From NCBI GenBank assembly GCA_949123685.1, contig CASBHZ010000033.1, forward strand, positions 1-31,234: DNA of 31,234 nucleotides, in the 5' to 3' direction. The notes beneath the pieces are model-generated. The model was given only the letters and a program-made list of their open reading frames with translations, had not been told where the DNA came from and searched no databases. Origin of the DNA: an uncultured Bacteroidales bacterium (GTDB taxonomy: Bacteria > Bacteroidota > Bacteroidia > Bacteroidales > Muribaculaceae). This document shows, in pieces, positions 86-30,382 of the stretch. Each line of letters opens with the position of its first letter. Within the stretch, counting starts at the first letter, position 1. Both the position numbers and the translations under genes were made by a program.

Positions 86-160
86 GGGCGATTAGCTCAG
101 CTGGTTTAGAGCATCTGCCTTACAAGCAGAGGGTCTGCGGTTCGAATCCGTAATCGCCCA
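86..160 (+). tRNA. tRNA-Val(UAC)
   Basis: A complete 75-nt cloverleaf can be drawn. The acceptor stem pairs GGGCGAT (86-92) with ATCGCCC (153-159), with discriminator A160. The D stem is GCTC/GAGC. The anticodon stem TCTGC/GCAGA encloses loop CTTACAA with anticodon TAC at 121-123, which reads valine GUA and, by wobble, other GUN codons. The T stem is TGCGG/CCGTA with loop TTCGAAT. It is the second of at least two tandem identical copies, separated by a 35-nt spacer, and is followed at once by a terminator-like hairpin. Confidence 0.95.
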
Positions 161-162
161 CC

Positions 163-900: not shown

Positions 901-2172
901 ATGCTTACTATAAATGTCATAAAGGCTGATCCCGAGTTTGTGATCAGCCGCCTCGCCGTCAAGGGGTTTGACGGCAGAGCCGTAATTACGGAAATACTTG
1001 AAATAGATGCTGAGCGTCGTCGTCTCCAGCAGAAAACAGATAATGACGCCTCTACCTTGAAAAAGTTGGCAGCATCCATTGGTGCTCTGATGAAGCAGGG
1101 AGAAAAAGATGAGGCAGAAAAAGTAAAAGGGGAAGTTGCCCGCATTAAGGGTGAAACGAAAGGTTTGCAAGATCGTCTTGCTGAATGTGAGGAAAAGATG
1201 CGCAATCTTCTGCTCACTGTCCCCAACCTGCCTTGCGCTGCAGTGCCGGAAGGATTAACGGCAGAAGAAAACGTAGTCGAAAAGACAGGTGGCGAAATTC
1301 CCGAACTTCCCGCCGATGCCCTGCCCCACTGGGAACTGGCAAAGAAATACAACCTCATAGATTTTGAAACCGGAGTCAAGGTTACAGGTGCCGGCTTCCC
1401 TTTCTACGTAGGCAGAGGAGCACGTCTCCAGCGTGCCCTCATACAATTCTTCCTCGACGAAGCTTGGAAAGCAGGATATGTAGAGGTTGAGCCTCCGTTC
1501 GTTGTAAATGAGGCATCAGGCTACGGCACTGGTCAGCTTCCAGACAAGGAAGGTCAGATGTATCACGTGACACTTGACAATCTCTACCTGATTCCAACAG
1601 CGGAAGTACCGGTAACAAATATATATCGCGACGAAATAATACCCGCGGCGGAGCTTCCAAAGAAGAACTGCGCATATTCACCTTGCTGGCGCCGTGAAGC
1701 CGGCAGCTACGGCAAAGACGTGCGCGGACTTAACCGTCTTCACCAGTTTGACAAAGTAGAGATCGTGCGTATCGAAAAGCCCGAAAATTCCTACGCAGCC
1801 CTTGAAGAAATGAAAGATCATGTGCAGGGACTGCTCGAAAAGCTCGGACTACCGTGGCACATACTCCGTTTATGTGGTGGCGACATGAGCTTCACTTCTG
1901 CTATCACATTCGATTTCGAAGTGTGGTCGGCAGCTCAACAACGATGGCTCGAAGTGTCTTCTGTCAGCAATTTCGAATCATATCAGGCAAACCGTCTGAA
2001 ATGTCGTTATCGCGATGAAGACAAGAAAATACAGCTTTGCCACACTCTCAACGGATCGGCTCTCGCGTTGCCTCGCATCGTTGCCGCACTGCTTGAGAAC
2101 AACCAGACACCGGAAGGTATCATAATTCCCGAGTGTCTGCGCAAATACACAGGATTCGATATTATCAATTAG
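901..2172 (+). CDS. serS: Seryl-tRNA synthetase
   Basis: This class II aminoacyl-tRNA synthetase charges tRNA-Ser (and tRNA-Sec where present) with serine in the cytoplasm. Its 423 residues are the usual bacterial SerS length. Residues about 1-110 hold the N-terminal tRNA-binding domain with a long charged antiparallel coiled coil (about 35-100). The catalytic core follows: PTAEVPVTN, the class II motif 2 region with CWRREAGSYGKDVRGLNRLHQF around residue 260-280 (shown here only as a motif label), and motif 3 with the segment ALALPRIVAALLENNQ near 380-395. The start codon ATG at 901 lies just after the yqeY stop. The gene sits second in a compact + strand cluster, and nothing in it looks damaged. 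Confidence 0.98.
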   Translation: MLTINVIKADPEFVISRLAVKGFDGRAVITEILEIDAERRRLQQKTDNDASTLKKLAASIGALMKQGEKDEAEKVKGEVARIKGETKGLQDRLAECEEKMRNLLLTVPNLPCAAVPEGLTAEENVVEKTGGEIPELPADALPHWELAKKYNLIDFETGVKVTGAGFPFYVGRGARLQRALIQFFLDEAWKAGYVEVEPPFVVNEASGYGTGQLPDKEGQMYHVTLDNLYLIPTAEVPVTNIYRDEIIPAAELPKKNCAYSPCWRREAGSYGKDVRGLNRLHQFDKVEIVRIEKPENSYAALEEMKDHVQGLLEKLGLPWHILRLCGGDMSFTSAITFDFEVWSAAQQRWLEVSSVSNFESYQANRLKCRYRDEDKKIQLCHTLNGSALALPRIVAALLENNQTPEGIIIPECLRKYTGFDIIN

Positions 2173-2192: not shown

Positions 2193-2969
2193 ATGGAAGA
2201 TCTAAAATACATAAGCAAAGAAGAGAAAAAAATACCGATCAATGATCCTTCGGGAAAATGGTCGGATCTCACATTGCTCCCTGAATGGGGCGAAAAATAC
2301 TATGACGTATATACAATACGGAAACATGGTAAGTGGGTAATGCTTAAGGCTCTTAAAAAAGAATATGCCGACAATCCCGAATATCGCAAGATGCTTGAGA
2401 ACGAGTTTGACACCCGTTATAATCTTGCGCACCCAAACATTGTGATGGTCAACGACCTGGAGGAGGTGCCGGGTGTAGGGCTCGCCATAATCACCGATGA
2501 CGTGTATGGGTATTCACTCAGAAGACTCATTGATGAAAAGCGACTAACCCCTAAAATCGTGCATCGCCTTGAGACTCAGCTCCTCGATGCTATGGAATAT
2601 ATCCAAGAGAACCATCTCGTGCATGACCCTATAACTCCGGAAACAATAATATTTACGGAGTATAATGAGAACCTGAAATTAATTAATGTAGGATACGCAC
2701 AGAAATCAAGCATCACTCCATTCGACTCATGTGAAGACATACGAAGCTACGGCAAAGTATTGAATGAGGTGCTTGATCACCTGCCCACATCTCTTCCCCG
2801 CCTGCGCCGCATCGCAAACAAGTGCGAAAACGACAGCCCTGCGTATCATTCAATTTCAGATCTTCAACTCGCTATAGAGAAACGTAATTCAGGCCAACTC
2901 TTCACAATAATATGCGTATTCATACTCCTGATGGCTGCGCTCTTGATATGGCTGACGGTTAAAAGCTAA
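2193..2969 (+). CDS. Tail-anchored protein kinase-like protein, probable pseudokinase
   Basis: The 258-residue protein has a recognisable eukaryotic-like kinase core: VMLK with the VAIK-type lysine at K52, a helix C glutamate candidate at E69 or E71 before AHPNIV, and a hinge around residues 97-107. The catalytic loop expected as HRDLKPEN instead reads HDPITPET (144-151), so the catalytic Asp is Pro146, the Lys is Thr148 and the Asn is Thr151. The DFG motif is NVG (165-167), and no glycine-rich loop is obvious. Residues about 236-255 form one hydrophobic helix followed by VKS, which makes this a C-tail-anchored membrane protein with a cytoplasmic domain. It lies 20 nt after serS and 9 nt before the next gene. 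Loss of phosphotransfer is inferred; some unusual kinases remain active. Confidence 0.8.
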   Translation: MEDLKYISKEEKKIPINDPSGKWSDLTLLPEWGEKYYDVYTIRKHGKWVMLKALKKEYADNPEYRKMLENEFDTRYNLAHPNIVMVNDLEEVPGVGLAIITDDVYGYSLRRLIDEKRLTPKIVHRLETQLLDAMEYIQENHLVHDPITPETIIFTEYNENLKLINVGYAQKSSITPFDSCEDIRSYGKVLNEVLDHLPTSLPRLRRIANKCENDSPAYHSISDLQLAIEKRNSGQLFTIICVFILLMAALLIWLTVKS

Positions 2970-2978
2970 TTTACTATT

Positions 2979-4106
2979 ATGATTGAAATCAAACAGATTG
3001 AGCCGACAAAGGCGAATCTTAAGAAATTCACTCAGTTTCAGATAGACCTTTACGACGGCAACCCCTACTATGTGCCGCCATTGATATCGGACGACGTATC
3101 CACTCTCCTTCCGGAAGAGAACCCGGCATTCGATTTCTGCGAATCCGCATATTTCATGGCATACCGTAATAAAAAACCGGTAGGGCGTATAGCAGCAATT
3201 ATAAACAAGCAGGTAAACGAGAAATCTAATTCCAAGGATGCCCGTTTCGGATTCATAGACTTCATAGATGACCCCGAGGTGTCGTCCGCTTTGCTGAAAG
3301 CCGCAGAAGATTGGAGCCGCAAGAAAGGGATGACCAAGATAATCGGTCCGTTAGGATTTACGGATCTTGATCATGAAGGCATGCTGATATCCGGATTTGA
3401 GGAACTGTCAACCATGGCAACAATCTACAATTATCCTTATTATCCGGAACATCTGGAGAAACTTGGATACAAGAAAGAATCCGACTGGCTGGAATTTTTA
3501 ATGGAAGTGCCCGACGGCATACCTGAAAAATACAACCGTATTGCAGAGATTGTAAAAAAGAAGTTCGGTCTTAAAGTGTTGAAATATACCAACCGCAAGC
3601 GCATAAAGATGGAATACGGACATGCCCTGTTCCATCTTATAAACGATGCCTACAAAGACCTATACCAATACTCCACCTTGACAGAGCGCCAGATAGACCA
3701 CTACATCGACATTTATCTGAATCTGCTGAACCTCGACCTTGTGACACTTATTGTCGATGCCAATGGCAAACTCGTAGGTGTAGGAATTTCTATGCCCTCC
3801 ATGAGCAAGGCACTCCAGAAATCAAAAGGAAAACTTATGCCCATGGGTTGGTATCATCTGCTCAAGGGTCTTAAAGGTAAAAACGATAGGGTGGATCTCC
3901 TTCTCGTTGCGGTGCATCCGGACTATCAGAACAAAGGAGTCAACGCCTTGCTATTTCAGGATCTTATTCCTTATTATATAAAGAACGGCTATAAATATGC
4001 CGAATCAAATCCGGAAATGGAGAGCAATGCAAAAGTGCAAAGCCAATGGGAATATTTCACTACGCGTCAACACCGCCGACGTCGTTCTTTCGCTAAAAAG
4101 CTATGA
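2979..4106 (+). CDS. GNAT-family N-acetyltransferase-like protein
   Basis: The 375-residue soluble protein resembles the large Bacteroidetes proteins annotated as GNAT-like. The N-terminal half carries NPYYVPPLISDD and FGFIDFIDDPEVSSALL, and a central segment reads IIGPLGFTDLDHEGML. The C-terminal half has an acetyl-CoA-binding-like stretch, VDLLLVAVHPDYQNKGVNAL (about residues 305-324), matching the beta4/alpha3 region of GNAT enzymes. The substrate is unknown. The stop codon overlaps the ubiE start by 4 nt (ATGA at 4103-4106), so translation of the two is coupled. Codon use and composition match its neighbours. The family call is good; the reaction is not known. Confidence 0.75.
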   Translation: MIEIKQIEPTKANLKKFTQFQIDLYDGNPYYVPPLISDDVSTLLPEENPAFDFCESAYFMAYRNKKPVGRIAAIINKQVNEKSNSKDARFGFIDFIDDPEVSSALLKAAEDWSRKKGMTKIIGPLGFTDLDHEGMLISGFEELSTMATIYNYPYYPEHLEKLGYKKESDWLEFLMEVPDGIPEKYNRIAEIVKKKFGLKVLKYTNRKRIKMEYGHALFHLINDAYKDLYQYSTLTERQIDHYIDIYLNLLNLDLVTLIVDANGKLVGVGISMPSMSKALQKSKGKLMPMGWYHLLKGLKGKNDRVDLLLVAVHPDYQNKGVNALLFQDLIPYYIKNGYKYAESNPEMESNAKVQSQWEYFTTRQHRRRRSFAKKL

Positions 4107-4867
4107 CAGACAACAAAAGTGGTGCGGAGTTAGTAAATCCTTATTCCAAGGAAGGTCAGAAGAAGGATCAGGTGGAACAGATGTTCGATTCAATAGCCCC
4201 GGCATACGACTTCATGAACACGGCTATGACTTTCGGGCTACACCGCTGGTGGCGTTCCAAAGCACTTGACGCTGCGTCAAAAGCGTTTCCTTCCGGATCT
4301 CCGTCGGCAATACTCGATATAGCCACCGGCACCGGTGATGTCGCATTTGATCTGCACCGGCGTTTCCCGGAGGCTGCCATCACAGGCATTGACCTGTCTG
4401 CAGGAATGCTTGAAGTGGCAAACGCCAAGCTCGAAAAAATGAGCGTAAATGCATCGCGCCACATATCATTCATTCAGGGAGATTCCCTGAATCTCTCACT
4501 GCCCGACAATTCTCAAGACCTCATCACCGTGGCATATGGAGTGCGCAATTTCGAACATCTTCGTCGCGGATACGACGAGATGCTTCGTGTGCTCCGCCCG
4601 GGAGGGATCTTATGCGTAATAGAACTGTCTTGTCCGTCTGCCAAGATTCCTCTGGCATTATATAAAATTTACTCCCGCGGCTTGATCCCGTTCATCGGCA
4701 AGATGGTGTCGGGAGATTCGCGGGCATATTCGTATCTTCCGGAGAGTATCGCAGCTGCTCCCCAACGTTCGGATATGACTTCAATAATGGAAAGCTGCGG
4801 ATTCACAGGCTGCAGGTGGAAATCCCTCACCTTCGGTGCCGTAACATATTATATTGCACACAAATGA
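4103..4867 (+). CDS. ubiE: Demethylmenaquinone methyltransferase (UbiE/MenG)
   Basis: This SAM-dependent methyltransferase catalyses the last step of menaquinone synthesis, demethylmenaquinol to menaquinol. Its 254 residues are the usual length. It shows the family start region DQVEQMFDSIAPAYDFMNT (about 22-40), SAM-binding motif I in LDIATGTGDV (71-80), an acidic motif near GIDLSAGML, and the family blocks VAYGVRNFEH and LRPGGILCVIELS. Because the likely host respires with menaquinone, the menaquinone role is more probable than ubiquinone synthesis. It is translationally coupled on both sides: its start overlaps the GNAT-like gene by 4 nt and its stop overlaps the U32 start at 4864-4867. Confidence 0.95.
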   Translation: MTDNKSGAELVNPYSKEGQKKDQVEQMFDSIAPAYDFMNTAMTFGLHRWWRSKALDAASKAFPSGSPSAILDIATGTGDVAFDLHRRFPEAAITGIDLSAGMLEVANAKLEKMSVNASRHISFIQGDSLNLSLPDNSQDLITVAYGVRNFEHLRRGYDEMLRVLRPGGILCVIELSCPSAKIPLALYKIYSRGLIPFIGKMVSGDSRAYSYLPESIAAAPQRSDMTSIMESCGFTGCRWKSLTFGAVTYYIAHK

Positions 4868-12205: not shown

Positions 12206-15200
12206 ATGTTTATGCATTCCTTAAAACTGTTAGTTTTATCTGTGTGCGTAATGTTCTCTGTTCATGGAGCATTAGCAGCGTCACTCGGTGAAAACCAGGC
12301 TCGACGCATCGCAGCTGATTTCTTCGCGGCAGGAGGCTGCGAACGGCTTTCAAAAGAGTCTGCACTCGAACTGGCGCAGACATCCGTAAATAGCGCAGGC
12401 GAGTGCGCTTATTATGTATTTAACGCCAAAGATGGGCAAGGTTTCATTATTGTCAGTGCCAATGACAACATCGAGCCTGTTATTGCCTATGCATATGACG
12501 GCTCGTTCGAAGGAAATTCAGTGCCTGAAGCTACGGCATCCGTACTTCTGAACGTAAAGAAACACATCGCTTCCGCAAAGGTTGCCTCTCCGCGACGCAA
12601 GACAGCTGCAACGACAGCTGCGGTGTCTGGCAACAAATTGCTTAACACTGCCACATGGAGCCAGGAAGCCCCGTTCAACAACCTGATACCCAATCGCCGT
12701 CTCACTGGATGTGTCGGTGTGGCAATGGCTATAATCATGCGCCATCATGCTTATCCGGAGAAGGGCAAAGGTTCTATCGGCAATGTAAATTTCGATGCAA
12801 CCTATGACTGGACAAACATGAGAACCGATAATTACCGCAATGGATATACAGCCGTGCAGGCACAGGCAGTAGCAACATTGGTTTCTCATGCGGCGCAATC
12901 AATCCTCACAGACTTCGGCATGTCAAGTTCAAGTGCATTTGAAGTCCGCGTGCCTTCCGCTCTTATAAACCATTTCGGATATGACCCGGGAGTCTCATAT
13001 AAGAAACGCGCAGAAATGGACAAAGCTTCATGGGATGCGCTCATCGCGTCTGAAATTGAGGCGGGACGTCCTGTGCTTTATAGTGGACAAGATGTGTCAG
13101 TAGGACACGCGTTCGTATGCGACGGCTATGAGACTCGTGGTTCTGAGACTTATTTCCATATAAACTGGGGATGGGGAGGCACCGCCAACGCATATTTCGC
13201 GTCAGATGCCCTCAACCCCAGTGTAAGCCGCGATTATCATTTCAATGACCAGACAACCATTGTCTATAATATCAAACCTGCGGCAATGGCAGGAGCATGG
13301 TCTCCCATACACCTCACAAGCGACGGCAGCCAGATCGGTATGACATCAGACATTACCGACATGTCGGCAGGAACATCCTTCACGGTTCGCGCCGGAGCAT
13401 TGAAAAATATCTCCAACGATAACTTCACCGGCTCTATCGCCATTGCCATTTATGACGGAGCGGGGGCATTCAAATCTCTTGTCAGCGATCCCCGTGGTTT
13501 CAATCTCCCTTCGTTGCAAATAAATCAGTACACCGACTTCACTTGCAACGTGCCTGCGGCATCAAACGTTGTGAAAGGGGATGTCGTGAGACTTGTAACC
13601 AAAGCTAACGGCACAGACAACTGGCTGCCTGTGGCGGGAGATCTTCTCGTAGCAGGAGAGATTCCGGCAATCGGCAACGAGATACCATATTTCGCGGTGC
13701 AGATGCCGACGGCTGTTGAAGGTGCAGTGATATCAGCACCAACAGGCAACAAGGTTATAAAGGGACGTGATTTCTCTTTCAACGTGACTTCTCAGTCTTC
13801 CGACAAGGTCATTACGGTAAAAGCAAACGGCTTTATTCTCACCCCAAACACTGCAGGAAACTATGTTATACGCAATGTCAACTCTGACCAGAAAGTCAGC
13901 GTGACTGTGCAGAACGCGGCAGACGTCATATCCAAACGCAATGTATGGGTAACGGCAGGTAACCTCTCCAATCTCATAAACGACACCGATGCCGGAACAA
14001 TCAAAGACCTTACTATCTATGGAACGATAGACGCTACCGACTTCACATTCATTCGTGAACGCATGAAGCTAACACGTCTTGACATATCCAGTGCCCGCAT
14101 TCTCGCCAACGGAAGCAATCCCGCAAATGCCATCCCGGCAAAAGCCTTCTATTGGTACGGATCTCTTCAGGAGGTCGTGCTCCCTTCAAACCTCACCACT
14201 CTAAAAAGCGGATGTTTCACAGGCACAGGGCTGAAATCTGTTGAAATTCCGGCATCTGTCGGTACATGGGAATACAATGTGTTCCTTGGTTGCGAATCGC
14301 TCAGGGAGGTTATATCTCGCCGCACTTCTCCGGCTTGGATAAACTGGTGTGTTTTCAACGGCTCGCCAAGAACGAAACTGATCGTGCCGGTAGGTAGCAA
14401 AGCTGCATACTCGGCTAAAGAGTATTGGAAAGATTTCAAGGAAATCATTGAGCAGAATCCTGTTCCGGCAAGCTCATATTCCATCGACATCCAAGAAATA
14501 CCGGGTGTAAAGATAACCGCAGAAACAGAGGATACGGAAGTAGCTCCGGGATCATCATACAAGTTTAAAGTGGAAACGGATGATTCTTTCGGCGACGCCA
14601 CAATGGAGGTATATGCAAACAGCACCCGTCTCAATGCTGACGCATCGGGATATTACACGGCTGTGATCAATTCCAATACGCTCCTTCACACCAATTTCAA
14701 ATATCCTGAAGCAGTCTCAGACAGACCTTCAACTTGGAAAATAACCGGTGCTAACAACGGTGCAGGACTTGTGACTGACGTTATAAATGTAGCACCCGGC
14801 AAGACATTCTCCATGCGTGTGAACGCACTCGCGATCCCGGCTAACGACGCAGCGATGTTCTATGCCGCTGTTCTCACCGACAGCAAGGGAGCTATTAAAG
14901 AATTTATTTCACCCGTAATAACAAACAGCAGCGACAACCACGGCAACCTCCCCTGCACATTCTCATGTCAGGTTAAAGAAGCATCCGTGCGTGAAGGAAA
15001 CCTTATCCGCATAGTGACTTCATACAACAAAAAGAACTGGTATCTGGTGGATGCCGAATCTGAAACCGTCTGCGACCGTCTCAAGGCTGTAGGCAATGAG
15101 GTCAAATACCATAACGTGACAATGCCTGAATCTATTGAAGGAGCAACCATCACCGGCAACGTTACCCAGGTGGTGCATGGCATGCCCCTCAATATAACGG

Positions 15201-17896
15201 TAGTGCCTGTATCTGAGAATGATCTCGTAACTATTTCTGTGAACGATGTCGTAAAAATAGCGGATGCCGCCACTGCCAAACTTTCAATCGGCTCTGTGAT
15301 GGATGATCTCAATATCTCCATCCAGGTTAATCCCAAAGGCACACAGGTGTATACTGTGGTTCATGTGCATGAAGGAGAACTTGAAACAAAGATAGCTTCC
15401 GCCCCTGCCAGACTCAAAGTGGTAGGCACTATCAACCAGTCTGAATTTGCGGCATTCAAGAAACATATAACAAAAATCAAAGCTCTTGACCTTGCAGATC
15501 TCACTATAATCAATGACGGTAAAGAGATTCCGGTATTACCGGCATTGGCTTTCTATGATGACAAGAATTACCGGAATCTCTCAGCTCTGGAATCCATAAT
15601 CCTGCCATCAAATCTTAAGCGCATCGAAACGCAGGCTTTCTATCGCAATTTAAAACTGAAAGAAATTACACTTCCTGCGTCAATCGAATATATCGGTAAT
15701 TCTGCATTTGATTATTGCTTGGCACTTCAGAAAATCATCGTTTTGCGTCCCACGCCATGTGAACTTGGCAATATGGGTGTATTCCCTACCACCAAAACTA
15801 TCACCATCGAGGTGCCAAAGGGATCACTCGCCGCATATCAGGCTCCAACTACCCAATCATATTGGAAAGAACAGAACCTCGTCGAGTCGGCTATATTCTT
15901 TAATGTGCAGGTAGACCAGAAGCGTGTTGTCAACGTGGATCCGACAAACGTGCAGCTCAGCAAGATCGCTTATCCTGAAACTGCGACATCTGTTGAACTG
16001 GGTCTTCCGAACTCAAAAACGCAATTGAACCCGTCGCAGGAATTATACCCTGGCAAAGCTTTCCGTCTGTATGACAATGGTGTTGACGTTACTGAAACAG
16101 CTTCTTCAATAAAAGAGGGTAAATACAATGTAACATTCGATCCTGCAATAACTGACGAAGCTAACCTTGCATATCCCCAGAACCATAAGGTAGATGTAGT
16201 TCTATTCCATACCGTAGCATTCAACAAGTCTTCTGATAAAATATCGGTAAAAATGATTGTCACAAACGAGGAAAACATCTGGCAGAATGTTGCAATGTCA
16301 ATATTCGACAGCTCCTCTTCGGAAGTTCGTCCGGCAGTATACAAAGAACACAGAAACTATGGATTCAAGGTGATGTCTGAGGTTCCCGGCATGGAACCCA
16401 AGGTTAAGATAACAGATCATTCAGGCGAGACTCAGACTGTAATCCCGGATGAAGAGGGTGTCTACATGATATCCGACCTTCAGGGAGATGTCACCGTTGA
16501 CATAACAATGGTTCCGACAGAGGGAGCAATACTCAAGTCTGATGAATTGGCTGCAGTCGATAAGGAAAGCGCAGCCGACATAACTTCAATAGGCATGTCG
16601 GGCAATGTTTCTTCCGAAGACTTCGAAACAATCAGGGAAAACTTCAGCAACCTCGAGACGCTTAACCTCTCGGATATGGAGAACACCTCTATACCTGCGA
16701 ATGCGTTTACAGGCATGAGCAATCTGTCAAGCGTGGTAATATCTGACAATGTAACTGAGATCGGTGAAAATGCATTCAGTGGCTGTAGCAACCTTGAATC
16801 TATCTCCCTTTCATCCGTTGAGCAGATCGGTGCCGGAGCATTCAATGGCTGTTCCAACCTTACAAGCATATCAATTTCGGGTAACGGAACTCAGAGCACA
16901 AGAAGCTTTGCGTCTCGCGCAGTCGGCATAAACGATGACTCTTTCAAGGGAATCAACCCGAACTGTCTGATATTCGTTCAAGACCAGGGACTGTCGCTCT
17001 CCGGCAGCAACGTGATCTATAATAGCAATGGCATGCGTCAGGCTATGACCGATATAAATATTTCAACAGAATATCCTTTCAGCACTCCGGGAAGTTTCAA
17101 TCTTGGCGACAATACCATATCTCTGAAAGCTACAGCCGGCTACAAAACCGGTAACGGAGAAAACTGGAGCGGTATCGTGCTTCCATTCGTGCCGACATCT
17201 GTTACGGCAGACGGGAAAGCGGTAGCTTTTGCTGAGAAAGGAGACGCGACAATGCGCATCATGACCTTTGCAGATGCAAATGCCGAGACGCTTACAGACG
17301 CATCGGTGATAGAGCCAAACACTCCTTATGTGATCCGTCTTAATGACAAGGGAACCGGAACTGCCGATGTAGTGTTCAGCGCAACAGGCAAGAGCACTGG
17401 ATCTTCCGTAGCAAGCGATGACCTGACCACTGCAGATTTCGACGTACAGACAACTCCCGCTCCTGAGGCAATCGTCCGCACAGGTAAAGATTTCTCTATC
17501 TTTGCAAGCTATACCAACCGTCCATACGCAGCAGGGGATTACACACTCAACGAGGCTGGTTCAATGTTCGTCCTGACAGATGGCACCGAAGCCGGTTCTG
17601 TCGCTCCCTTCTCAGCCTACATGCGTGCAAACAACGGTTCTGCACCTGAATCCTTTGCAATAGGCGGTAACGATGAGACTTCATCCATCAATACTGTCAT
17701 CGGCACAGAGAATGGAAATATCTCCATATATCGTGACGGTTCGGTTCTGGTTATAACCGCCGTTACCGAGGGGTCTGTAAATATCTACAACCTTCAGGGC
17801 AATATCGTCAGAACCGTCACCCTCTCGGAAGGACGCAACACAATCGAACTTCCTGCCGGAATCTATATTCTGGAAGGAATCAAGGTAATGATGTAA
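12206..17896 (+). CDS. Giant secreted C10-family cysteine protease with LRR blocks and sorting tail
   Basis: The 1896-residue exported protein has a signal peptide (1-25, ends GALA), a streptopain-type pro-region (about 27-140) and a C10 peptidase domain (about 150-355). The catalytic cysteine is C169 in TGCVGVAMAI, the histidine H301 in VGHAFVCDGY, and N320 with the tryptophans of INWGWGG completes the site. After the protease a module of about 150 residues (361-510) recurs at about 838-985. LRR_5/BspA-like blocks occur at about 575-747, 1048-1228 and 1442-1560. The last about 65 residues (VNIYNLQGNIVRTVTL, LPAGIYILEGIKV) resemble a type IX-like sorting tail. A surface protease that binds and cleaves host or dietary proteins is likely. 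The 3' end overlaps the convergent antiporter gene by 34 bp. Confidence 0.92.
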   Translation: MFMHSLKLLVLSVCVMFSVHGALAASLGENQARRIAADFFAAGGCERLSKESALELAQTSVNSAGECAYYVFNAKDGQGFIIVSANDNIEPVIAYAYDGSFEGNSVPEATASVLLNVKKHIASAKVASPRRKTAATTAAVSGNKLLNTATWSQEAPFNNLIPNRRLTGCVGVAMAIIMRHHAYPEKGKGSIGNVNFDATYDWTNMRTDNYRNGYTAVQAQAVATLVSHAAQSILTDFGMSSSSAFEVRVPSALINHFGYDPGVSYKKRAEMDKASWDALIASEIEAGRPVLYSGQDVSVGHAFVCDGYETRGSETYFHINWGWGGTANAYFASDALNPSVSRDYHFNDQTTIVYNIKPAAMAGAWSPIHLTSDGSQIGMTSDITDMSAGTSFTVRAGALKNISNDNFTGSIAIAIYDGAGAFKSLVSDPRGFNLPSLQINQYTDFTCNVPAASNVVKGDVVRLVTKANGTDNWLPVAGDLLVAGEIPAIGNEIPYFAVQMPTAVEGAVISAPTGNKVIKGRDFSFNVTSQSSDKVITVKANGFILTPNTAGNYVIRNVNSDQKVSVTVQNAADVISKRNVWVTAGNLSNLINDTDAGTIKDLTIYGTIDATDFTFIRERMKLTRLDISSARILANGSNPANAIPAKAFYWYGSLQEVVLPSNLTTLKSGCFTGTGLKSVEIPASVGTWEYNVFLGCESLREVISRRTSPAWINWCVFNGSPRTKLIVPVGSKAAYSAKEYWKDFKEIIEQNPVPASSYSIDIQEIPGVKITAETEDTEVAPGSSYKFKVETDDSFGDATMEVYANSTRLNADASGYYTAVINSNTLLHTNFKYPEAVSDRPSTWKITGANNGAGLVTDVINVAPGKTFSMRVNALAIPANDAAMFYAAVLTDSKGAIKEFISPVITNSSDNHGNLPCTFSCQVKEASVREGNLIRIVTSYNKKNWYLVDAESETVCDRLKAVGNEVKYHNVTMPESIEGATITGNVTQVVHGMPLNITVVPVSENDLVTISVNDVVKIADAATAKLSIGSVMDDLNISIQVNPKGTQVYTVVHVHEGELETKIASAPARLKVVGTINQSEFAAFKKHITKIKALDLADLTIINDGKEIPVLPALAFYDDKNYRNLSALESIILPSNLKRIETQAFYRNLKLKEITLPASIEYIGNSAFDYCLALQKIIVLRPTPCELGNMGVFPTTKTITIEVPKGSLAAYQAPTTQSYWKEQNLVESAIFFNVQVDQKRVVNVDPTNVQLSKIAYPETATSVELGLPNSKTQLNPSQELYPGKAFRLYDNGVDVTETASSIKEGKYNVTFDPAITDEANLAYPQNHKVDVVLFHTVAFNKSSDKISVKMIVTNEENIWQNVAMSIFDSSSSEVRPAVYKEHRNYGFKVMSEVPGMEPKVKITDHSGETQTVIPDEEGVYMISDLQGDVTVDITMVPTEGAILKSDELAAVDKESAADITSIGMSGNVSSEDFETIRENFSNLETLNLSDMENTSIPANAFTGMSNLSSVVISDNVTEIGENAFSGCSNLESISLSSVEQIGAGAFNGCSNLTSISISGNGTQSTRSFASRAVGINDDSFKGINPNCLIFVQDQGLSLSGSNVIYNSNGMRQAMTDINISTEYPFSTPGSFNLGDNTISLKATAGYKTGNGENWSGIVLPFVPTSVTADGKAVAFAEKGDATMRIMTFADANAETLTDASVIEPNTPYVIRLNDKGTGTADVVFSATGKSTGSSVASDDLTTADFDVQTTPAPEAIVRTGKDFSIFASYTNRPYAAGDYTLNEAGSMFVLTDGTEAGSVAPFSAYMRANNGSAPESFAIGGNDETSSINTVIGTENGNISIYRDGSVLVITAVTEGSVNIYNLQGNIVRTVTLSEGRNTIELPAGIYILEGIKVMM

Positions 17897-20759: not shown

Positions 20760-20796
20760 GCCCAAAATGTAACTTTCAACTTGCAATACAAAAAAA

Positions 20797-20831
20797 GGAG
20801 ACCGAAGTCTCCCCGAGATCAACTAACTTTG
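20797..20831 (+). promoter_or_regulatory. Transposase promoter with a small upstream hairpin
   Basis: TAACTTTG (20824-20831) is a consensus -7 element only 9 nt before the transposase ATG. The start site would fall at about 20838, giving a very short or leaderless mRNA. A 6-bp hairpin, GGAGAC-CGAA-GTCTCC (20797-20812), sits in the -33 region. Confidence 0.55.
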
Positions 20832-20840
20832 TGTTGCAAT

Positions 20841-21830
20841 ATGTATCATCAGTTAACCTCGCAGCAAAGGTCGCAAATTTTCGCCTTACTGCAAAGAAAA
20901 ACTCCGAGAAAAGAAATCGCCCTCATTGTGGGGTGCAGTCAGTCGACACTCAGCCGCGAGATAAGGCGCAACTCGACAGGGAAAGGCAACTACCTGTGGG
21001 ACAAGGCACATGCAAAAGCCTTGGAACGCAGGAAGAGGGCTACGTCAAACCGGGCGAAGGATCCGCTTGTCGTCTGGGAAGCCTTGAACCTGCTCAGGGA
21101 CGAGGACTGGTCACCCGAACAGATCTCGGCTGACATGAAACGCCGCGGCTGGCATATCTCCCACGAACTCATATACCGCCACATCCGCGCTGACGGAAGC
21201 GGGGCACTTGCAGCCCATTGCCGCCACAGGATGAAATATAACCGCCACGGACGTCCCGACCGGACTACAAAGGTGAAGAATATCCCCGGACGTGTGAGCA
21301 TACACCAGCGGCCGGCCGAAGCCGACGGCAGGCGCTTCGGCGACTGGGAGATGGACACTATCGTGGGCAAGGACGGCAAGGGGGCTGTCGTGACCCTCAC
21401 GGAACGGAGCACAAACATGGTCCTCATGCAAAGGCTGCCCGATGGCAAACGTCCGGAGCCGCTGGCAAAGGCCGTGATCCGTATGCTGTTCCCATACAGG
21501 TACACGGTCCGCTCCATTACCACCGACAATGGATCCGAGTTCTGTGCACACCGGTTAATATCCAGTGCTTTAGCTCCGAAAGGTTCAAAGAATCCAAATC
21601 TGGTGTTTTTCGCCGACTCATATTCCTCCTGGCAGAAGGGTGCCATCGAGAACGCAAACAAACTCATCCGTCAATACATCCCCAAAGGAACTGATTTTGC
21701 ATCATTGACGGATGCTTTCATACGGAAAGTCCAGCATAAAATCAACCGCAGACCTCGTAAAAAACTAAATTTCGACTCTCCTAAAAATGTTTTCTTCCGA
21801 CAAATCGCTAATTTTGCACTTGCCAGTTGA
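20841..21830 (+). CDS. IS30-family transposase
   Basis: The 329-residue DDE transposase has an N-terminal helix-turn-helix (about 1-45: LTSQQRSQIFALLQRK, IALIVGCSQSTLSREIRRNS) and a catalytic core with the family segments WSPEQISADMKRRGWHISHE (about 91-110) and GDWEMDTIVGKDG. The acidic triad appears intact: D172 in EMDTIVG, D229 in TTDNGSEF and E270 in GAIENANKLIRQYIPKG. The C-terminus NRRPRKKLNFDSPKNVF is characteristic. ATG 20841 is chosen because family members start MYHQLT-like and the -7 element lies just upstream. A TTG at 20781 in the same frame falls inside the terminal repeat. The gene looks complete and possibly active. Confidence 0.93.
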   Translation: MYHQLTSQQRSQIFALLQRKTPRKEIALIVGCSQSTLSREIRRNSTGKGNYLWDKAHAKALERRKRATSNRAKDPLVVWEALNLLRDEDWSPEQISADMKRRGWHISHELIYRHIRADGSGALAAHCRHRMKYNRHGRPDRTTKVKNIPGRVSIHQRPAEADGRRFGDWEMDTIVGKDGKGAVVTLTERSTNMVLMQRLPDGKRPEPLAKAVIRMLFPYRYTVRSITTDNGSEFCAHRLISSALAPKGSKNPNLVFFADSYSSWQKGAIENANKLIRQYIPKGTDFASLTDAFIRKVQHKINRRPRKKLNFDSPKNVFFRQIANFALAS

Positions 21831-26633: not shown

Positions 26634-29165
26634 CTATTCAGCTTTGTAGAAAGCCCGGATGCGTAAGGGCTGCGTTCTCAGCACGCTTCCAACCGGATGA
26701 GTATATGTGGGATTAAACAAACCACTGCGGGTGCTGTTACTCTCCACATAATTGCCATTGCTGTCAATACCGGTTGCTCGTGCCCGATCACTAAGTTCGC
26801 CTTGTCCCAAACCCGAATATTTTCCGGCTGAAGCCGACAAATAAAGATTGGGGGTGTGAAATTCGGGGAATATCGGATAATTGTTGCGCAATGCGCCTTC
26901 AAGCTCAGTGATGCCGGGCATATACCATCCACGCGTACCGGACAATACATTACCGTTACTGTCTCGCTTCCCTTTTCCTGCACAATAATGGAATGCAGTG
27001 GCAGGAGGAACATCGTTAAACAGTTTCACCCCGCTCATGGGTTTTGCGCCATCTCTGGCAAGCACCTGCGTAGTCATCTGATAAGCCGGACCTGTCAAGT
27101 AAACCTCATATGTATTCCCGTCGACACGATTCCCGAATGCACCATCCGTTGCCAAATTCCGCAACGTACTCGCATCATGCGCCCATGGCAATCCGGTGTA
27201 ATATTCTCCGGGTTGGCTGTGCTTGTCAAGAGGATCTTGATGATCCATATACTCTTCATAATACTCCATCCATGAGTTCACGGTTCCATTGCTGGAATTA
27301 TAGATGACATGGATAAGCGCACGCTGTTCGATTTCGAGTATGCGTTCCCGCGCAGGCTCAAGAAGGTTTCCATCTTTGTCTTTGCGTTCATATTTCACCT
27401 CGATTCTCGCCATCCGGTCACCATAACCCACAGGATTATTATTTTCCGGCACGTTCTCATCAATATAGAAATATATTCTGGAGCGGGAATTGTTTATCTC
27501 GGGAGTGCTCTCTATCTTAACTTTATATCCACATTGTGCGCCTTCATCATGATTCTCAAGAATTAACCTGTTGTCAATCCGAGAAAACAGGTCCTCATAA
27601 AAATAAGGTTCCGCTCCACAACCGGCAACAAAATTACCCTTCTCCATCTCCGTGCGGGGTATCATCACCATCCTAATCCAGCTTCTTGACTCTTCCGGAA
27701 TAGTCACTGTGACGGTGGAATAATGAGTTACCTCCGGCACTTTCTGATCAGGATCGTCAGGCGAAGGTTCGCGAAGGAGAAGCCAGACATCCATCGGAAG
27801 CGCCGTAGCGTGGGCATCCACTTTGCGTTCGTTCACTATGGCAAGATACACCGGATTGTCGCTGACCACATTCACTCGACCATCGAAAGTGTAAGCGTCA
27901 TCATCAGAATTGCGGACATAGTCGAGACCATGTATCGTGACATAATTGTTATATTTCCTGTTTCTGATAACCTTGAAATCCTGAACAGGATCTTCACCCA
28001 TATAGATCGTGAACTTCGCTTTATAGGTCAGCCCCTGATGAGTGGTGTAGGAGCCGTTGATCACGAGAGCCGATGCCTCTTCTTTCTTGGCGATCGTCGG
28101 CTTCCAGCGTTGTGTCCTCCCTATATTGTCGGCATGCATCGGATCATCGTTGCCCGAAGCGAGCACACCCTCCGGGAAACGAAGATTGCCCGTGGCATCA
28201 AAAGCCGGAGTCCCGTCGGGACGCGTAGCCGACATATTCGGCTGCTGGATATTCTCATAAGTATAATATGTGAAGGTGAGTGGTTCGGAGTCTGCCGTGA
28301 TGGTCTTTCCATAATTTGTAATAAACTCACCGGTCAGCTTGTCATCTCCGCTGACATCAGTAGATTCGTCACCTTCGGGTTTCACAAACGGAACCATGTT
28401 GGGCATGTTCTTCACACCGAAGCTTTCAATAGTCATGGTCGGAAGCGACCGGTCCCCGTTGGTCTGGTTGGGATCAAGTTTCACCTGCACGTCCACCCTT
28501 GCCATCATGGCAACCATGTCGACAATGATACGCCCCGCATTGATCTCATCTTCCGTAAATTCCTTGGGACCTGCAATCATAGGCATTCCCGCATCGGGGA
28601 TTTTGGTGATATCCCCGCTCCCATCGGCACCTATTCGCAACCTAGGGGCATAGATCCAGCTTTCAATGTCACTGAGCTTTTCGATCTTATAGGGAGAACC
28701 GGTACGCGAACCGGTCGTGATCTGTCCCGTAGGTGTCAGGTCCGTATAAAATGTGTTCGGATCCGTGCTGCCTGTATTATCCGTTGCGTCAATATTGGCG
28801 ATCGCCACCATCTTTACATTACGTAGGTTTCCTAAAGCCGCCTCATTGATCTCGAATACACTGTTCTCAAACTTCTGATATCCGTTAAGGTTACCAAATT
28901 CAGTAGTGATAAGTTCACCGCTATACTTGTCAAAGAAAAAGAGATGCACGGTCTTTATTCGTTTCTCATCTTCATCCTTGGGTCCTGCGGCACGCGTGAT
29001 CTGTCCCGGAGCCACAAATTGGGGGATCATGTCTGAAACTGAAAACTTTAATACAGTTTTCCCCGATTCTGAGGGATTGTTATCGAATATTTCATCAGAG
29101 CAGGAGGTTAAGCCGGAAAACAAAAGCAAAACCGCCACCATATATGATATGATTCTGAATTTCAT
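26634..29165 (-). CDS. Large DUF4906-like fimbrial lipoprotein (probable minor or tip component)
   Basis: The 843-residue exported lipoprotein has lipobox LTSC (C22). ATG 29165 is preferred over an in-frame TTG six bases upstream. The N-terminal part has the fimbrillin-like fold signature KTVHLFFFDKYSGELITTEF, then IVDMVAMMARVDVQVKLD. A middle region (about 430-620) has beta-rich repeats. The C-terminal part carries the DUF4906-type YHCAGKGKRDSNGNVL and GWYMPGITELEGAL blocks and ends in LRTQPLRIRAFYKAE. Such proteins are the large minor or tip proteins of FimA/Mfa-type fimbriae, possibly adhesins. It is last in the operon, 18-25 nt after the fimbrillin gene, and precedes the terminator. The ligand is unknown. 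Confidence 0.8.
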   Translation of the reverse strand: MKFRIISYMVAVLLLFSGLTSCSDEIFDNNPSESGKTVLKFSVSDMIPQFVAPGQITRAAGPKDEDEKRIKTVHLFFFDKYSGELITTEFGNLNGYQKFENSVFEINEAALGNLRNVKMVAIANIDATDNTGSTDPNTFYTDLTPTGQITTGSRTGSPYKIEKLSDIESWIYAPRLRIGADGSGDITKIPDAGMPMIAGPKEFTEDEINAGRIIVDMVAMMARVDVQVKLDPNQTNGDRSLPTMTIESFGVKNMPNMVPFVKPEGDESTDVSGDDKLTGEFITNYGKTITADSEPLTFTYYTYENIQQPNMSATRPDGTPAFDATGNLRFPEGVLASGNDDPMHADNIGRTQRWKPTIAKKEEASALVINGSYTTHQGLTYKAKFTIYMGEDPVQDFKVIRNRKYNNYVTIHGLDYVRNSDDDAYTFDGRVNVVSDNPVYLAIVNERKVDAHATALPMDVWLLLREPSPDDPDQKVPEVTHYSTVTVTIPEESRSWIRMVMIPRTEMEKGNFVAGCGAEPYFYEDLFSRIDNRLILENHDEGAQCGYKVKIESTPEINNSRSRIYFYIDENVPENNNPVGYGDRMARIEVKYERKDKDGNLLEPARERILEIEQRALIHVIYNSSNGTVNSWMEYYEEYMDHQDPLDKHSQPGEYYTGLPWAHDASTLRNLATDGAFGNRVDGNTYEVYLTGPAYQMTTQVLARDGAKPMSGVKLFNDVPPATAFHYCAGKGKRDSNGNVLSGTRGWYMPGITELEGALRNNYPIFPEFHTPNLYLSASAGKYSGLGQGELSDRARATGIDSNGNYVESNSTRSGLFNPTYTHPVGSVLRTQPLRIRAFYKAE

Positions 29166-29189
29166 TGTCAATAGATTATAAGAAACTGT

Positions 29190-30371
29190 TTAATGGATAT
29201 CAATAGAATTATCAGAGCCGTTCTCCCAGTTAGTCTGGTTGTCAGCCTGAAAAACAAGCACTATGTTATCGTCCACAAAAGTCAGATTGGCGGTGTGGCG
29301 AGTGTTTGGCTGAGGATTGTAATTAAGCCGTAAGATGTCTATGGCAAAAGGGTTACGGGGTTCACCACCGACAGTATATTCCACAATAATTCTTTTGTTT
29401 GCTCCCAAGGGATGCTCAGCGGCACCTGAATTTGGATTCGGGAGGAGCAGTAGAACATTCCCTTCGGGATTTTCATCTGTTTTTCCGAGAAGCGCGCTAC
29501 CGTCATTGACAACAGTCTGGTTACCGTCGAACACGGTATATGTACCGCTGTAAGAGCTTGTCTCAAGCGGCACGGTCTGGGTTATCATACGGTTAGTCGC
29601 GAAGTTATAGGTAGCCGTGCGATAAAACTGCCCTTGAAACGTAAGTTTCGTCACTACCAATTCGCGCCCTGTCTTGTTGTTGACACGGAACCTTATACCT
29701 GTAAGGATGTGGTCAAAACTGAGATTCACCTTACCCAAAAGGCGAGTGCGGTCAAAAGTCGAGGCAACAAGGGCATCCGGGATGTCTGCCCGGTCAAGGG
29801 CATCTCCGGTATTTCCTCCGCTGAATGGCATATTGAAAGTAAGCACCGGAGTGTGGTCTGAAGAACTTAACCTTCCCATCGAGAAACCACCTTGACTGTT
29901 TCCACCCACACCATTGGCAGCGGCTATAAAGCTATAATTATAATCATAAGATGCGTCGATGTCGTTATTATTGACAATCCATGGTTTCAAAGTGCCATAA
30001 TCCGTTTTACCGCCGGACACATTCACTGTTGTTCCGCCCATACCATTATCGAACACGTTAGGCGCGCACATCGCTGATTTTGTGTTCCAGTCTCCTGAAG
30101 CACTCTCATAATTAAGTGTTTCAGTATTTATAATATAAGGCACACAATAGCCCCATACCATAAAAGACGTTATGCCTCCTTCTCCGAAGCTTTCCGCCAA
30201 CCGGGCGCGTGTATGCCCCGCCCCGTCATATTCAAGACCGGGAGCGGCAAACGTGATGTAGGATCCGGAATCCGGTTCCATCTCAGGAGCATCATGATTG
30301 TCGGAACATGATGCCGACATTATAGAAATCAGCACCAACGCCGTCCACGATATATATGCGTTTTTCTTCAT
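29190..30371 (-). CDS. Fimbrillin family lipoprotein
   Basis: The 393-residue protein is a Mfa/FimA-type fimbrillin precursor. The signal peptide ends in lipobox SASC (C22). Such precursors are lipidated, moved to the outer surface and cleaved before polymerising into a stalk by donor-strand exchange. The Mfa_like_1 pattern is seen in ITSFMVWGYC, LSFDHILTGIRFRVNN (about residues 215-230), LLLLPNP and the C-terminal IDILRLNYNPQPNTRHTANLTFVDDNIVL. ATG 30371 (MKKN) is chosen; an ATG two codons upstream at 30377 is an alternative. It follows the truncated fimbrillin gene by 5-11 nt and precedes the DUF4906-like gene, so all three form one transcript. Confidence 0.88.
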   Translation of the reverse strand: MKKNAYISWTALVLISIMSASCSDNHDAPEMEPDSGSYITFAAPGLEYDGAGHTRARLAESFGEGGITSFMVWGYCVPYIINTETLNYESASGDWNTKSAMCAPNVFDNGMGGTTVNVSGGKTDYGTLKPWIVNNNDIDASYDYNYSFIAAANGVGGNSQGGFSMGRLSSSDHTPVLTFNMPFSGGNTGDALDRADIPDALVASTFDRTRLLGKVNLSFDHILTGIRFRVNNKTGRELVVTKLTFQGQFYRTATYNFATNRMITQTVPLETSSYSGTYTVFDGNQTVVNDGSALLGKTDENPEGNVLLLLPNPNSGAAEHPLGANKRIIVEYTVGGEPRNPFAIDILRLNYNPQPNTRHTANLTFVDDNIVLVFQADNQTNWENGSDNSIDIH

Positions 30372-30382
30372 TGTCATTAAAA

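Follow-up and report, generated by a model that had tools for sequence, protein, structure and literature searches.

The window, by which we mean the whole stretch of 31,234 nucleotides analysed here (contig CASBHZ010000033.1 of an uncultured Muribaculaceae bacterium), contains an operon-like run of genes in the order yqeY, serS, pseudokinase, GNAT, ubiE and U32 peptidase. The pseudokinase gene is separated from serS by 20 bp and from the GNAT gene by 9 bp. A scan of the window returned 15 promoter-like sequences versus 8.7 in shuffles, and 9 terminator-like sequences versus 6.8; these counts were set aside as evidence. The features of the locus are given below; classes A, B and D are the groups of related loci described in the following paragraphs.

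901..2172, + strand: serS, the upstream neighbour in class A only
2193..2969, + strand: pseudokinase gene (P0001), 258 aa, kinase fold plus C-terminal membrane helix
2250..2513, + strand: N-lobe, residues 20-107, retained in classes A and B, missing in short class D
2346..2348, + strand: K52, the VAIK lysine, kept in 134/134 loci
2514..2957, + strand: residues 108-255, homologous to C-lobe-only orthologues (hhalign 99.6%, 141 columns)
2622..2645, + strand: degenerate catalytic loop HDPITPET at the HRDLKPEN position, residues 144-151, P146 replacing the catalytic Asp
2685..2693, + strand: NVG at the DFG position, residues 165-167
2694..2735, + strand: 14-residue remnant of the activation segment, without APE motif
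2736..2753, + strand: alpha-F motif DIRSYG, residues 182-187, D182 in 134/134 loci, motif recognisable in class D
2898..2960, + strand: hydrophobic stretch of the C-terminal membrane helix, residues 236-256
2979..4106, + strand: YghO-family tandem GNAT, candidate ceramide synthase (CerS), constant partner in classes A and B
4103..4867, + strand: ubiE methyltransferase gene, 4-base overlap with the GNAT end, lineage-specific neighbour

Several further features were seen in the window. A tRNA-Val (TAC) gene is located at 86-162 (+), and the first 51 bases of the window repeat its 3′ part when compared by eye; the window thus seems to start inside a second tRNA-Val copy. A protein of 1896 residues at 12206-17896 (+) combines a Spi inhibitor propeptide, a peptidase C10 domain and BspA-type leucine-rich repeats. 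An IS30-like transposase at 20781-21830 (+) has an HTH_38 domain and a sub-cut-off integrase-core match. Two adjacent proteins at 26634-30377 (-), one fimbrillin-like (Mfa_like_1) and the other with DUF4906, perhaps form a fimbrial locus.

The kinase match of the 258-residue protein is clear (PF00069, E 3.1e-11; CaMK1, E 2.8e-10). Structure prediction, proposed as a check in an earlier note made from the sequence alone, gave a bilobal kinase-type model with one terminal helix that ends at residue 257 of 258. The best of five models had a pLDDT of 84.6 (58-79 for the others), and PknB was the nearest structure in the structure comparison. By its curated profile match and bilobal fold the protein is a member of the kinase superfamily (Pkinase fold), and K52, E71 and H144 are retained. 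It lacks what marks a Hanks-type active Ser/Thr kinase, namely the catalytic Asp, the Asn, the DFG Asp and a full activation segment with an APE motif. The residues read in the earlier note (K52, the helix C Glu, HDPITPET at 144-151 and NVG at 165-167) are correct.

Orthologues and the nearest other kinases were compared with the window protein. The 161 loci gathered, several genomes being represented twice, were split by profile E-value into class A (111 loci), class B (23) and class C (27). Class C consists of the 27 nearest other kinases, from genomes of the order, with profile E-values of 1.5e-13 to 4e-36. Classes A and B together make 134 loci with 104 distinct aligned sequences. In a large protein set 2731 candidates were scored, 2173 of them matching at E 1e-3, and the best 120 of these 2173 were 75-100% identical to the query. 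Copies in two genomes (G605 and G518), with intermediate E-values, were considered as divergent forms and rejected, since they are cut at a contig end or hold an N run. A plasmid search for the pseudokinase returned 5 records, with distant kinases only.

Orthologues with an intact HRD motif, named in the earlier note as the evidence that would speak against a pseudokinase, were sought in the 134 class A and B loci, and the catalytic Asp was found in none of them. The catalytic-loop Asn (Asn151) is present in 13/134 and lost in 121, and the DFG Asp is kept in 45/134 and lost in 89. K52, E71, H144 and the alpha-F D182, in contrast, are each found in 134/134. The activation segment is 14 residues long in every A and B locus; in the 24 of 27 class C kinases where it was measured its median length is 35, with an APE-like motif in 22 of the 24. 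The class C proteins further differ from the pseudokinase in keeping the HRD Asp, the Asn and DFG in 27/27 and in having a large region after the helix. The two groups are alike in their membrane segment: a hydrophobic C-terminal segment is present in 134/134 A and B loci, and a strong hydrophobic segment in 25/27 class C kinases, in many of them directly after the kinase domain. The anchor was thus, most simply, inherited from a membrane kinase. The description of a tail-anchored pseudokinase is supported by the missing catalytic Asp and the constant hydrophobic segment.

Substitutions are under strong constraint, with dN of 0.06-0.18 and saturated synonymous sites in 5 comparisons. In class A the N-lobe is the best conserved part (pN 0.01-0.09 versus 0.07-0.18 in the C-lobe, five close pairs), so that a nucleotide- or ligand-binding function is possible there. 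This conservation, together with the invariant K52, E71 and H144 and the DFG Asp still present in 45/134, would be expected if the pseudokinase still bound nucleotide, either as an unusual enzyme (SelO-like AMP transfer) or as a switch that senses ATP, the GNAT being its substrate or target. We regard this explanation as unlikely in view of the complete loss of the catalytic Asp, the frequent loss of Asn151 and of the metal-binding Asp, the missing activation segment and the occurrence of short forms without the N-lobe, described below.

The gene neighbourhood was examined in all classes. In class A, serS is directly upstream in 105/107 loci, a count that leaves out the 4 of 111 loci ending within 100 bases upstream, whereas it is directly upstream in 0/23 class B loci, each with at least 1.39 kb of upstream sequence. 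On the other side, the next gene downstream is the GNAT gene, in the same orientation, in 133/133 testable A and B loci, the remaining locus ending at a contig edge. The loci were collected via the kinase, and the count of GNAT adjacency is therefore not circular. The median gap between the two genes is 35 bp in class A and 14 bp in class B. By manual reading, any other non-overlapping gene family occurs in at most 8 of the 20 compared class B loci. A link of the pseudokinase with serS or with menaquinone was rejected because these neighbours are lineage-specific. The earlier note had placed the gene between serS and a GNAT-like gene, embedded in a tRNA/menaquinone cluster. This describes the window accurately and is misleading for the family: only the GNAT side is constant, and of the two things whose conservation it proposed to check in orthologues, the altered catalytic Asp is general and the serS neighbourhood is a trait of class A. 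The gene pairing itself could reflect co-expression alone.

The GNAT has a tandem GNAT fold (5kf1, E 2.9e-14), a fold which names no substrate. An assignment as an amino-sugar or antibiotic acetyltransferase was tried and rejected, the profile hits being generic or sub-cut-off and the PDB sequence search giving nothing convincing. Full-length homology was found with E. coli YghO (27% identity) and with a protein of Roseomonas gilardii (27.9%, E 5e-37). The yghO gene is among the plasmids of a lysine-acetyltransferase screen in the excerpted text of PMC6199490, which gives no result for it. The Roseomonas homologue (L275 10086-11243, +) is annotated as a dATP pyrophosphohydrolase, an annotation which the homology does not support. 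It stands after LptF/LptG-family genes and a sterol desaturase gene, and a nucleotidyltransferase gene comes next; within ~7 kb there are also genes for an acylglycerol-kinase-family protein, a CDP-alcohol transferase and a metallophosphoesterase. This setting is much like that of the Caulobacter ceramide synthase CC_1154, presumably the same as CCNA_01212. A point against the comparison is that the gene table of the 25 kb Roseomonas stretch, which is incomplete, lists no serine palmitoyltransferase. The Caulobacter region, as given in excerpts of PMC11324152, comprises LptF2/LptG2, CerS (CC_1154), a CofC-like nucleotidyltransferase (CC_1153), the ceramide kinase CC_1160, and CC_1159, which carries a CDP-alcohol domain. 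In the part of PMC10865984 available, CerS reference proteins are named for B. fragilis and Caulobacter, and CerS hits are given in Prevotella copri. The synteny of the Roseomonas homologue indicates that the GNAT is homologous to the CerS family.

Exactly one GNAT copy is present in 367/380 GNAT-bearing Muribaculaceae genomes (manual count). Among genomes of the order the GNAT was found in 159/198 and the pseudokinase (E<1e-80) in only 3 of the same 198. Thus, the GNAT does not need the pseudokinase in general.

Serine palmitoyltransferase was sought in 77 genomes at E below 1e-150. The query matches the enzyme of a PDB entry (E 3e-145) whose organism is presumably Sphingobacterium. Outside the family the sample consisted of the 20 listed of the 39 GNAT-less genomes, and of 20 of the 159 GNAT-positive ones, the latter hand-picked down the list. 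Serine palmitoyltransferase was present in 12/20 genomes with any GNAT match versus 0/20 without (Fisher 5e-5, kinship ignored). Among genomes whose GNAT match was strong (E<1e-150, a limit chosen after the data were seen) it was present in 11/12, versus 1/28 of the others (6e-8, kinship ignored). Inside Muribaculaceae it was found in 17/20 genomes with the GNAT and in 13/17 without a detected GNAT, so that there is no contrast within the family; the 13 GNAT-less genomes may reflect assembly gaps or another enzyme. The kinase-derived gene is missing from all 17 GNAT-less family genomes (P 2e-11 if independent). This was discarded as evidence because incomplete assemblies lose adjacent genes jointly and because serine palmitoyltransferase is present in 13 of the 17. 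Taken together, the homology to YghO and the Roseomonas protein, the CerS-like gene setting and the co-occurrence with serine palmitoyltransferase outside the family make the GNAT a good, though unproven, ceramide synthase candidate; most likely it is the one that these bacteria use.

Some kinase match was obtained in 340/397 Muribaculaceae genomes, and the pseudokinase itself is present in 274/397, of which 272 matched below 1e-50 and two are copies cut by contig ends or N. In an order-level sample of 295 genomes the pseudokinase was found at E<1e-80 in 4, all of which also belong to the Muribaculaceae set, and the next best match had an E-value of 5.5e-34. In the sample used, the pseudokinase family is therefore a Muribaculaceae speciality. 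The earlier note had spoken of pseudokinases of this kind in Bacteroidales, without an assigned role. The order-wide scope does not hold, the four matching genomes all being Muribaculaceae-like; with the serS cluster it is the part of that interpretation to be given up, while the pseudokinase with a membrane anchor stands. As to the role, no report on the pseudokinase family, the GNAT pairing or the C-lobe-only forms was found in the open-licence literature among the matches listed, and the GNAT partner gives a starting point for proposing one.

Shortened forms of the pseudokinase were found next to the GNAT. Besides two loci with cut copies, 28 GNAT loci were inspected in family genomes without a full-length pseudokinase. 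In 9/28 an ORF of ~145-190 residues directly upstream of the GNAT matches just the final portion of the pseudokinase profile (class D). In a profile comparison with hhalign, class D aligned with residues 108-255 of the pseudokinase over 141 columns (99.6%, E 7.9e-24); no Pfam match was obtained for the three class D proteins tested. A class D search gave a match in 298/397 family genomes, one in each except for two each in G356, G479 and G645. A full-length pseudokinase match is absent from 37 of the 298, and in the 35 of these 37 that are among the matches listed with a position the open frame is 146-215 residues long. Class D proteins lack the N-lobe with K52 and helix C. They keep a C-lobe remnant, the alpha-F motif, the juxtamembrane segment and the membrane helix, the last in 29/29 proteins examined. 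One class D protein (L211 2759-3331, -) is longer; judged by eye, the 60 residues at its N terminus could represent a reduced N-lobe. No genome with both full-length and short forms was seen in the family set, so that class D is best read as shortened orthologues of the pseudokinase. Orthologues reduced to a C-lobe remnant and a membrane helix call for a non-catalytic role.

In the GNAT tree class A forms one clade (support 100). Classes A and B together come close to forming one (87), which encloses a single kinase-less row; around them class D and other kinase-less loci are scattered, the deep branches being weakly supported. The C-lobe tree recovers A, B and D as three separate groups, jointly set off from ten class C rows (99); class D is joined there at support 87, with long branches. 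As one tree scatters class D and the other joins it, the N-lobe may have been lost a single time or repeatedly. A graded loss of parts from lineage to lineage, together with GNAT loci that have no kinase-derived gene upstream, is also what would be seen if the gene were functionless and decaying, tolerated through its position in the operon. The strong constraint, the copies in 274/397 genomes and the retention of the hydrophobic C-terminal segment in all 134 A and B loci and all 29 short forms make this highly improbable.

A zinc-ribbon membrane protein is encoded directly upstream in 25/29 class D loci. It has a zinc ribbon plus a membrane helix in ~440-500 aa (L255, L258, L259, L262, L263 and others), and no Pfam family at cut-off was found beyond the ribbon in the four tested. 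In four kinase-less loci (L204, L216, L221 and L222) the zinc-ribbon protein is directly upstream of the GNAT. This order suggests that the ancestral arrangement was zinc-ribbon protein, kinase-derived gene, GNAT. Of the 29 class D loci, 9 were found via the GNAT and the other 20 were chosen partly because they seemingly did not adjoin it; among these 20 the GNAT is within ~600 bp in four and at ~4 kb in one, and was not found in the stretch in 15. Class D thus lies beside the zinc-ribbon protein and often not beside the GNAT, and the GNAT partnership may hold only for classes A and B. Both observations would also fit a membrane scaffold serving another process, for example with the zinc-ribbon protein, the GNAT being a co-expressed passenger. 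For classes A and B this explanation appears improbable: the zinc-ribbon protein was not detected in the A and B loci examined, many with flanks of only 1.5 kb, and GNAT adjacency there is without exception.

Among known systems, EssB/YukC offers the nearest working model. According to excerpts of PMC9600267 and PMC12599244 it is a PknB-like pseudokinase with an attenuated activation loop and one membrane helix, and acts as a scaffold without ATP binding. The window protein likewise has a pseudokinase domain followed by a single membrane helix. This precedent indicates that scaffolding without ATP binding is possible for a PknB-like pseudokinase whose activation loop is reduced and which carries a single helix. 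The two differ in that YukC, as described in these excerpts, has an extracellular domain (residues 244-384), whereas at most 2 residues follow the helix in the window protein, and in that EssB/YukC has type VII secretion partners in Bacillota, in place of which the window has yqeY, serS, GNAT, ubiE and U32 peptidase. EssB/YukC was absent from the best 50 matches listed in each of two structure comparisons. The bacterial pseudokinases ActPs1-3, CP1, DYD and DLHK of PMC12599244 resemble the window protein in having a bacterial Ser/Thr kinase fold with degraded motifs. CP1, by excerpts of the same paper, is without membrane regions and carries a linked COG3899 domain; the window pseudokinase, unlike CP1, has a membrane helix and no second Pfam domain above cut-off. 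The main text of PMC12599244 holds no word beginning with Bacteroid-, Muribacul- or GNAT. On the acyltransferase side, the GNAT resembles CerS/bCerS (Caulobacter CC_1154) and E. coli YghO through its full-length homology to YghO and the Roseomonas protein. Ceramide synthase activity is a prediction for the GNAT, and the excerpts on Caulobacter mention no kinase-like partner.

The loss of the catalytic Asp and of the activation segment, the membrane helix, the constraint, the strict pairing of the two genes in A and B loci, the GNAT's homology to the CerS family and, outside Muribaculaceae, its co-occurrence with serine palmitoyltransferase form the basis of our main reading, to which we give a probability of roughly 55%. 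The pseudokinase would be a catalytically dead, membrane-anchored and dedicated partner of the CerS-like GNAT, docking or regulating the acyltransferase. In the proposed mechanism serine palmitoyltransferase would make the sphingoid base and the GNAT, as a putative ceramide synthase, would N-acylate it. The kinase-like domain would probably face the cytoplasm, with its single C-terminal helix in the inner membrane. There it may contact the peripheral acyltransferase and dock or regulate it at the membrane, in a role that could be one of anchoring, activation, or nucleotide- or lipid-sensing.

For the origin of such a partner a tentative history can be offered, which we hold to be somewhat less probable than the partnership itself. 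Early Muribaculaceae would have recruited a transmembrane Ser/Thr kinase to regulate ceramide synthase at the membrane, and the kinase would then have lost its kinase parts stepwise. The catalytic Asp and the activation segment may have been lost first and the metal-binding Asp later; in some lineages the whole N-lobe would have gone, so that only a stub of the C-lobe with its membrane helix was left.

Bacterial pseudokinases are widespread, and few have a known partner or role, as stated in the excerpted PMC12599244. Bacterial pseudokinases are already known, and the present family, its pairing with the GNAT and the C-lobe-only forms appear new when set against the open-licence papers listed. 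If the proposed history is true, bacterial sphingolipid synthesis would have a protein regulator dedicated to it, and the family would show a rare series of stages from enzyme to adaptor. The shortened orthologues suggest that the nucleotide-binding lobe is dispensable and constitute a natural experiment on the purpose of a pseudokinase. Through the gene pairing, a probable ceramide synthase is singled out as a partner that can be tested. Muribaculaceae are prominent in the mouse gut, and their sphingolipids, if made, could reach the host.
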